Shown here piece by piece: positions 8,222 through 63,390 of a DNA stretch of 64,000 nt. A program made the position numbers and the translations under genes. The stretch is from the NCBI RefSeq assembly GCF_016865485.1, contig NZ_AP024452.1:5292501-5356500 (forward strand). Reading direction: 5' to 3'. Under the pieces are notes generated by a model. The model saw only the letters and a list, made by a program, of their open reading frames with translations. It was not told where the DNA came from and made no database searches. Position 1 is the first letter of the stretch, and each line of letters starts with the position of its first letter. This DNA is from Luteitalea sp. TBR-22 (GTDB lineage Bacteria; Acidobacteriota; Vicinamibacteria; Vicinamibacterales; Vicinamibacteraceae).

Positions 8222-10990
<2,769 letters not shown>

Positions 10991-61543: not shown

Positions 61544-61816
61544 GTGAATGCCATCAAGACCAGCACTGGCGTCGAGATCCCGCTGGACGGCGACCTGCTC
61601 GCGGTGGTCGAGACCCTGTTCCAGGAAGTGACGGTCCGGCACGAACTGGCGCGGACCTACGAGGACATGATGCGGGAGATCCAGCACCTCGCCGAGCAGT
61701 TGTCGCCCGAGGAACTCCGCGCGTACTTCATCGAGAGCCTCTTCCTGAACACGGTGACCTACGAGAACGAACGTCTCGGCGCCCTCGTGAAGAAGCTGCC
61801 GGAAGACGGGGAGTAG
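61544..61816 (+). CDS. Small helical protein of unknown function
   Basis: The 90-residue acidic protein is almost all helix (LLAVVETLFQEVTVRHELAR, MMREIQHLAEQLSPEELRAY, NTVTYENERLGALVKKLPED) and looks like a short coiled coil. It starts 4 bp after the STAS stop, so the sigma-STAS-helical trio is probably one operon. No family recognised. It could be a third component of the switch. Confidence 0.7.
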   Translation: MNAIKTSTGVEIPLDGDLLAVVETLFQEVTVRHELARTYEDMMREIQHLAEQLSPEELRAYFIESLFLNTVTYENERLGALVKKLPEDGE

Positions 61817-61824
61817 AGAAGAGA

Positions 61825-61918
61825 TTTCAGAATTTCAGAAGTTCAGAATTTCGCCACCACCTCAGCGCCTCGAAGGATGGGGATGGTGATGAAATTCTGA
61901 AATTGTGAAATTCTGCAA
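61825..61918. repeat. AT-rich inverted repeat with 28-bp arms, each built of ~8-bp units
   Basis: The left arm (61825-61852) and right arm (61891-61918) are inverted copies matching at 25 of 28 positions, separated by 38 bp. Within each arm the motif AATTTCAG (or its complement) recurs every 8 bp. The element is far richer in A and T than its surroundings. It occupies the gap between the small helical gene and the radical SAM start, ending 6 bp before the ATG. Confidence 0.8.
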
Positions 61919-61924
61919 TTGCTG

Positions 61925-63283
61925 ATGTCCGAGAACTATCTCGCCACCCGCTATCGCTGCTCCTGGCCGTGGAGCACCGCCGTCCTGCTGTGTGATGGGC
62001 GGGTGGTGTGCGGCTGCGCCGACCCGTACGGCAAGCGGGTGCTCGGTGATGCACGCACCGACAGCCTCAACGCGATCTGGACCGGCCCCACCGCGTCGCG
62101 GCTGCGGCAGGAACTCAACGCCGGTGGCTCGGACTTCTGCGGCGACTGCCCGCTGAAGCTGCCGCTGGCCGAGGACGAGCAGCCGCCGCAGCGCCCGCTC
62201 GACGTCGGTCCGCTCCCCTCGCGCATGTACGTGGAGAGCACGGCGGCGTGCAACGTGTCGTGCCTCGACTCCTGCTGTGCGCCGGAGACCGGCATCACGA
62301 AGACGCGGCAGGCGGGCATGCTCGACGTCGACCTGTTCCTGCGCGTGCTCGGCGAGGTCGGGCCGACCCTCGAGCGCGTCGACTTCTTCAACTACGGCGA
62401 GGCCTTCCTCCACAAGCGCGCCGTGGAGATGTGCGAGATCGTCAAGCGCGACTACCCGCACATCTACCTGTACACGTCCACCAACGGCGGCGCGCTCAAC
62501 GAGGAGTCGGCGCGGCGCCTGGTGCGGTCGGGCATCGACGAGATCACCTTCTCGGTGGACGGCGCGTCGCAGGACGTCTACGCCACCTACCGGCAGCGCG
62601 GGCGCTTCGAGCACGTCATGAAGAACCTCCGTGCCGTGATGGACGAGAAGCGCAGGCTCGGCACCGACGTGCCGTTCGTGAACTGGCGCTACATCCTGTT
62701 CCGGTGGAACGACAACGACGCGGAGATGGCGCGCGCCAGGAAGCTGGCCGCCGAGATCGGCGTCGACCGCCTGTGCTGGGAGATCACCGATCACCCCGAG
62801 CACGCGTACTCGCGCCGCTTCGCGCCCGGCACCGAGGACTGGAAGCGGATCAGGCACGAGGTGTGGGACGACAACCACCTCGGGAGCGCGATTCCCGGCA
62901 CCACGCCGCGTGCCCGCATCGAGGTGCGGGGGCCATCGCGCGCCGAGACGCTGGTGCAGCCGGCCGGCGCGCCGCTGGCGCTCGACCTGCGCGTGCGCAA
63001 CCTGAGCCAGCGCCCGTTCCCGCACACGGCCACCTACGGTCGGCGGCTCGTGCGGGTCGGCGCGCAGCTGCTCGACGAGCAGCGCGAACTTCGGGATCGC
63101 GACTTCGTGCGCGCCTCGTTGCCGGCCACCATCGACGCCGGTGCGTGGCAGGACCTCCGCCTCGAGATCCCGCCCATGCCCCCCGGCCGGTATCACATCA
63201 AGCTGGATCTCGTGAGCGAGGGTATCGACTGGTTCGAGTCGTGCGGCTCGGAGGTCACCCTGCGCGAACTGCGCGTCGAGTAG
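61925..63283 (+). CDS. Radical SAM protein with N-terminal SPASM-like Cys region and C-terminal beta-rich domain
   Basis: The 452-residue protein opens with a region resembling SPASM: WSTAVLLCDGRVVCGCADPYG, VLGDARTDSLNAIW, FCGDCPL (Cys23, 29, 31, 72, 75). The radical SAM domain follows, with STAACNVSCLDSCC; its Cys spacing is C109-x3-C113-x3-C117 (plus Cys118) instead of the usual C-x3-C-x2-C. Later motifs NYGEAFLHKRAVEMC, YTSTNGGALNEESA and EITFSVDGASQDVY are typical. The last ~125 residues (LDLRVRNLSQRPFPHTATYG, GRYHIKLDLVSEGIDWFESC) resemble the glycan-binding domain on Wzt-type ABC proteins and some glycosyltransferases. No ribosome site precedes the ATG. Function unknown. Confidence 0.8.
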   Translation: MSENYLATRYRCSWPWSTAVLLCDGRVVCGCADPYGKRVLGDARTDSLNAIWTGPTASRLRQELNAGGSDFCGDCPLKLPLAEDEQPPQRPLDVGPLPSRMYVESTAACNVSCLDSCCAPETGITKTRQAGMLDVDLFLRVLGEVGPTLERVDFFNYGEAFLHKRAVEMCEIVKRDYPHIYLYTSTNGGALNEESARRLVRSGIDEITFSVDGASQDVYATYRQRGRFEHVMKNLRAVMDEKRRLGTDVPFVNWRYILFRWNDNDAEMARARKLAAEIGVDRLCWEITDHPEHAYSRRFAPGTEDWKRIRHEVWDDNHLGSAIPGTTPRARIEVRGPSRAETLVQPAGAPLALDLRVRNLSQRPFPHTATYGRRLVRVGAQLLDEQRELRDRDFVRASLPATIDAGAWQDLRLEIPPMPPGRYHIKLDLVSEGIDWFESCGSEVTLRELRVE

Positions 63284-63313
63284 GGGCGGGGCGCTGCGAG
63301 CTCGCGTCCAGCA

Positions 63314-63390
63314 GGTGTAGCCGTCGGCCTTGGCCGACGGCCTGTGAACCGTCCAGCACCTGACTGCCGGCCAGGGCCGGCACCTACACC
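63314..63390. repeat. Palindromic unit with two perfect hairpins inside 7-bp inverted ends
   Basis: The outer ends GGTGTAG (63314-63320) and CTACACC (63384-63390) are inverted copies. Inside lie CCGTCGGCC-TT-GGCCGACGG (63321-63340) and TGCCGGCC-AG-GGCCGGCA (63365-63382), both perfect. It sits between the convergent radical SAM gene and the truncated minus-strand gene, and it looks like a REP/BIME-type or miniature mobile unit. Confidence 0.75.

Follow-up and report, generated by a model that had tools for sequence, protein, structure and literature searches.

The STRR heptamers of cyanobacteria are short tandem intergenic repeats like the AATTKCAG octamers described below, and differ from them in being heptamers in direct arrays. 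The GGGNATC heptamers of Xanthomonas and Nostoc (Rehm et al., 2015, PMC4692102) also form short-unit arrays with a preference for four units, and occur as inverted pairs, 70 of which are given for Xcc and 75 for Xac; they lie between aligned ORFs, near stops, and are under-represented between divergent ORFs. Their unit is a G-rich 7-nt word that forms G-quadruplexes in vitro (PMC4692102), whereas the AATTKCAG octamer is AT-rich, has no G run and flanks a partly shared core. REP/REPIN sequences of the GTAG and CGTC types are dispersed palindromes as well, found in tandem or convergent gaps close behind coding regions; as described in PMC3733652, REPs are 20-40 bp long and tagged, the GTAG types go with transposase genes, and CGTC repeats too lack such genes, whereas the present element measures ~98 bp and has periodic arms and no tag. 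The TAACTGA repeats of marine Beggiatoaceae (PMC4679880) are likewise intergenic tandem arrays of a short unit, present in many sets, and their forward unit supplies stops in all frames; they are direct arrays, mostly just before starts, with only one inverted set, in contrast to the inverted AATTKCAG arrays.

We analyzed a stretch of 64,000 nucleotides (the window) of Luteitalea sp. TBR-22, whose genome is one contig of 6,468,984 bases (PMC8852301). An inverted repeat of octamers lies there directly before a radical SAM gene. Our main reading, to which we assign a probability of about 0.6, is that this element is a copy of a dispersed palindromic family in gaps behind stop codons, with a generic hairpin effect and no role as a gene-specific, signal-sensing switch. 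The features of the locus are as follows.

61544 to 61816, + strand: upstream 90-aa ORF, no Pfam match; stop TAG at 61814-61816, 6 nt ahead of the element
61823 to 61853, + strand: left arm, four octamers GATTTCAG AATTTCAG AAGTTCAG AATTTCG(C), a AATTTCAG-type array
61854 to 61889, + strand: core, GC-rich, CCACCACC...GGATGGTGA, akin to the family core near CACCACCTCAGCGC.TCGAAGG.TGGCG.TGGT.ATG
61890 to 61921, + strand: right arm, TGAAATTC TGAAATTG TGAAATTC TGCAATTG (four octamers), mirroring the left array
61925 to 63283, + strand: radical SAM/SPASM gene (Pfam PF04055, PF13186); ATG at 61925, 3 nt past the last octamer

Architecture of the Element and the Same Gap in Relatives

The first-pass annotation of this DNA had reported 28-nt arms at 61825-61852 and 61891-61918 that match at 25 of 28 positions and have an internal periodicity of ~8 bp, and both statements held: in either arm 16-nt copies recur at 8-nt steps, with a lag-8 identity of 0.88. 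The element is wider than the 61825-61918 then given, extending over ~61823-61921 with four octamers per arm; when extended, the inverted repeat has 36-nt arms with 86% match. It is the sole inverted repeat in the 64-kb window with 24-nt arms of at least 80% match. A Markov control of 700 kb contained 21 inverted repeats (22-nt arms, at least 80%), none of them with tandem-repeat arms. We concluded that the inverted repeat before the radical SAM gene is confirmed as real.

The RNA of the window element folds at -51.3 kcal/mol, compared with -30.3 ± 3.5 kcal/mol for 200 shuffles, none of which folded as well (z -5.9). The long stem once proposed for the transcript is thus borne out, but the proposed hiding of the start region is not, because the ATG at 61925-61927 lies outside the stem and is mostly unpaired (0.98/0.57/0.95). 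It had also been remarked that no ribosome site is visible; a Shine-Dalgarno-like purine run is indeed lacking just upstream, but by eye it is likewise lacking in the element-free genomes G001 and G002. Neither a sigma-70-like promoter nor an intrinsic terminator (GC-rich stem, then T run) was found at the window copy. As to a riboswitch or known structured RNA, a search of Rfam gave no match at the gathering score, and an alignment of family copies gave no consensus pairs; the three Rfam matches below that score (the best, MIR4227, with 26.2 bits where 100 are required) were set aside as chance.

The 90-aa ORF sits between a STAS-domain gene and the radical SAM gene, and many genomes of the order carry DNA 68-88% identical to it, mostly adjoining the radical SAM gene. 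Comparison of this gap in relatives, as the annotation had proposed, showed that four congeners (G001-G004) carry the gene pair with flanks at most 30 bp apart and with the element absent; in G001 the stop of the upstream ORF overlaps the radical SAM start codon (ATGTCTGA). In a farther relative of another genus (G017), the same gap holds a mirror built from another octamer: TGATCTGK, a word with 54 matches in that genome vs. none for the reversed control. Nested mirrors were seen by eye in another genome (locus L117 of G027, ~1440-1620), in which (GGGACGAG)n-like arms enclose (TGATYTGG)n arms. Behind the radical SAM gene, the convergent gap (window 63300-63390) has another type of palindrome, GTGTAGCCGTCGGCC... 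/ GGCCGGCACCTACACC, and in G001 the corresponding gap has, by eye, a different GGTAGGG palindrome.

The Dispersed AATTKCAG Family

The family plan is ~98 bp long: about four AATTKCAG units, a 36-nt GC-rich core and a mirror array. A 14-mer of the arm (at most 1 mismatch) had 85 matches in the TBR-22 genome and none for the reversed control, and nhmmer (E ≤ 1e-6) yielded 48 distinct copies in the sequence examined, 33 from this genome and 15 from G001. Alignment of 26 copies from both genomes gave the AATTKCAG arrays and the core listed above. Position 6 of the octamer is C in 267 of 272 units and position 5 is T or G; three to four units were recognized in 79 of 86 arms, and the arms have 33% GC in a genome of 70.5% GC. 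Because RNAalifold gave no consensus pair on the 26 copies, our search model (R1) used sequence only. It matched in 8 of 60 genomes, namely 5/5 of the genus (at least 71, at least 68, 8, 16, and 27 matches) and three from a different family within the order (14, 16, and 2), counts in which many sites are scored on both strands and each genome is represented by at most 68 candidates; in two genomes that share the family of TBR-22 but belong to another genus, R1 had no match. The core was also tried as an independent repeat and rejected: of its 8 matches (at most 3 mismatches), 5 fell in family elements and 3 elsewhere, vs. 4 for the reversed control.

In other phyla, a 26-nt arm pattern found 12 stretches in genome contigs, in a scan that may leave out records near the TBR-22 genome; by eye, they are mostly direct arrays, with a mirror in the stretch from a gp6 acidobacterium. 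An arm pattern had no match in viral contigs and the window element lies between two ordinary genes, so that the suggested attachment site is without support. "Decayed repeat" comes nearest among the early readings in that the element is a repeat, a copy of a dispersed family. No description of the AATTKCAG family was found in the literature searched, a statement that holds for those searches alone, and the portions of PMC13155455 and PMC4060949 consulted contain nothing on repeats of the phylum Acidobacteriota. At loci L005 (1280-1535) and L067 (1485-1726), a terminator-like GGGGGCGCGCCC hairpin stands between two family copies within one gap, in both species.

Placement and Mobility

Gaps were typed with a purpose-written codon-usage gene caller, the starts of which are approximate. 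By gap type, the 48 copies divide into 35 tandem, 12 convergent and 1 divergent; within the TBR-22 genome 0/33 copies are in divergent gaps vs. 53/301 background gaps (301 gaps of at least 1 nt: 201 tandem, 47 convergent, 53 divergent). Copies at the tandem sites lie a median of 8 nt from the stop and 25 nt from the start and are closer to the stop in 26/35, and at the convergent sites both stops are -1 to 27 nt from the element. We concluded that siting behind stop codons is a real preference. As in REPs, the copies are sited between tandem or convergent ORFs (47/48), and as in the GGGNATC repeats they are inverted pairs of about four units near stops of aligned ORFs; the G-quadruplex heptamer was not found. 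No GTAG or CGTC tag was seen by eye at the foot of the aligned copies, which end in AATTKCAG units, and a RAYT partner was rejected: AATTKCAG copies show no linkage to Y1_Tnp genes, with 0 family copies in 14 Y1_Tnp loci. With no REP tag, no RAYT and no G runs, we filed the family as an intergenic palindromic/tandem repeat, without assigning it to the REP or the GGGNATC group. The best reading of its sequences would be a new family of intergenic palindromic repeats, near the Xanthomonas GGGNATC heptamers and akin to REPs in placement.

The copies could instead belong to a non-autonomous mobile element (MITE- or REPIN-like) mobilized by a transposase in trans and kept where harmless, so that the 3'-end siting would reflect purifying selection on insertions. 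The dispersed copies with their partly shared core, the empty site in the congeners and a placement also typical of REPs (PMC3733652) are what such an element would leave behind, but the missing GTAG tag and the absence of copies around genes for Y1 transposases, the transposase family searched, speak against it, as do genomes G002 and G003, which have the family without a Y1_Tnp match. No target duplication was visible in the relatives compared, which are ~80-84% identical and whose gaps do not align. Since 16 of 24 TBR-22 sites are common to G001 at ~75-87% coding DNA identity, the element is not very mobile, and we consider this explanation somewhat unlikely.

What Is Conserved: Octamers, Core, and Pairing

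At orthologous sites the left arms are 78% identical and the cores 56%, values equal to those of random family members (shuffled baselines: left arm 52%, core 49%). Since orthologs are as divergent as random members, the octamers persist while the core drifts; constant octamers beside drifting cores would follow from selection acting on the word as well as from fresh copies taking the place of old ones. Compensation between arms was not detected: complementarity within a copy was no greater than between copies (16800/20000 permutations as good), native arms folded no better than re-paired chimeras (17871/20000 as good), and ortholog chimeras were weaker in 8/14 pairs (p = 0.71; 2/16 pairs were skipped for length). 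There was a weak signal for pairing in the core (569/20000 in one test, 304/20000 in another) and a weak excess of G-U over A-C (67 vs. 48, p = 0.09). Without compensatory arm pairing, selection on the stem is unsupported by the arms, and the hint comes from the core alone.

These data bear on the idea that a sequence-specific protein, e.g., a nucleoid or termination factor, binds the arms as arrays of its AATTKCAG sites, the hairpin being a by-product of the inverted layout. Octamers that are conserved beside cores near random, with position-specific constraint in the unit and no pairing compensation, would be expected of such arrays, but re-copying could also explain the constancy of the octamer, and the unrelated octamers, heptamers and nonamers found with the same architecture in other genera and in other families of G001 would need a different protein each time. 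We regard the proposal as unlikely.

Other Mirrors With Periodic Arms

Inverted repeats with tandem arms were found outside the family too. Their share among all inverted repeats was 5/28 in the TBR-22 genome (400 kb), 14/55 in G001 (340 kb), 7/11 in G022 (80 kb) and 1/3 in G029 (period 12); the G001 density is not that of a random sample because its stretches were picked around expected orthologs of TBR-22 copies. None was tandem-armed in G005 (0/5), G031 (0/10), G002 (0/6) or G011 (0/5), and 50 kb of E. coli had no inverted repeats, hence no tandem-armed ones, in the periodic-arm scan. Arm periods of the 27 tandem-armed repeats were 7 (18), 8 (4), 9 (3), 11 (1), and 12 (1). The 25 with periods of 7-9 were distributed over tandem (13), convergent (8) and divergent (3) gaps and one gap of undetermined type, and none lay inside a gene. 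The unit words vary (GTCATTG, GGAGGAC, GTCTCAG, AAAAGGGCG, and others, with CGATGCCG by eye). Locus L134 of G001 (10100-10220) has a second octamer mirror family, (CGATGCCG)n, of which another site is present in G004 too.

A functionless mutational product, in which the units grew by replication slippage and were mirrored by template switching, would suit the 7-9-nt units of 25/27 tandem-armed repeats, and slippage has been linked to 7-nt units in work cited in PMC4679880. Units within one arm, however, differ from each other as much as do units taken from separate copies (1.81 vs. 1.80 differences; 1014/2000 permutations as low, and 368/2000 in the position-preserving control), so no local slippage is visible; in addition, a shared core requires copying and the arms remain at 33% GC. 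We judge this origin improbable.

Possible Exchange of Palindromes in Orthologous Gaps

We compared 114 orthologous gaps between the TBR-22 genome and G001, with extra windows because constant-offset synteny to G001 failed at many sites. At 24 TBR-22 element sites, the G001 gap held the same family in 16, another inverted repeat in 5, a heptamer-armed mirror in 1 and none in 2; the figure of 16/24 is inflated by G001 stretches that were chosen for holding the AATTKCAG family. The two sites scored as "none" by script are the window site and the convergent L061 site, where heptamer arrays enclose a palindrome by eye. Where TBR-22 has the element and G001 lacks the family, the G001 gap had another repeat in 6/8 cases, compared with 10/84 for gaps that are repeat-free in TBR-22 (Fisher p = 0.00025). 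With length matching (G001 gaps of 90-400 bp), a small sample that excludes one of the six, L014 with its 1170-bp gap, the figures were 5/6 vs. 7/28 (p = 0.014), the p value having risen from 0.0017 with 78 gaps to 0.014 with 114. The reverse direction gave no clear difference (3/9 vs. 5/22). These gap sequences are suggestive of replacement of the AATTKCAG element by other palindromes in the same gap. Among the palindromes found in its place are GGTAGGGACGCC and GTAGSCGTCGACC types resembling GTAG REPs. One GTAG-REP-like palindrome adjoins a Y1_Tnp gene: at L109 (1374-1461, near 4723300 of the TBR-22 genome) two GCGTCGACCTTCAGGTCGACGC palindromes lie beside it and probably form, with that gene, a resident REP/RAYT system.

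A possible, tentative extension is that gaps behind stops are heritable "hairpin slots" in which a palindrome is kept while its family is exchangeable, and that 7-9-nt tandem-armed mirrors are one class made by one process with a lineage-specific word. The occupants may then comprise AATTKCAG octamers, heptamer-armed mirrors, (GCGATGCC)n mirrors, GTAG-type palindromes and, in the radical SAM gap of another genus, TGATYTGK octamers.

Discussion

If the element is a family copy in a gap behind a stop codon, it would have entered the radical SAM gap in the TBR-22 lineage and parted two ORFs that, in G001, overlap by their stop and start codons. A transcript of the element would fold into a long hairpin that begins and ends within a few nt of the stop and the start, respectively. 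The most likely effect would be that of a generic intercistronic or 3'-end hairpin, with a putative shielding of the upstream mRNA end and an uncoupling or damping of the next gene. The element may be kept because gaps behind stops tolerate or favour a hairpin, its occupant being swappable for one of another family. A 5' regulatory switch specific to the radical SAM gene, as the first-pass annotation had suggested on seeing a stable hairpin directly before the start codon, is scarcely credible, unless its effect arose newly in the TBR-22 lineage, because 4/4 congeners lack the element in front of that gene (absence from close relatives had been named beforehand as evidence against it) and because the element has many copies beside other genes, no Rfam match at the gathering score and no compensatory change in its arm pairing, and leaves the start codon accessible.

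The analysis explains away an apparent riboregulator, and it gives a little-studied phylum a repeat family that can be searched for. The results further suggest that G-quadruplexes are not required for the placement rules of the G-rich heptamers. If the sharing of slots by unrelated palindromes is true, selection for a hairpin at a given place would be separable from the spread of any one element, a distinction also at issue for REP-like repeats.
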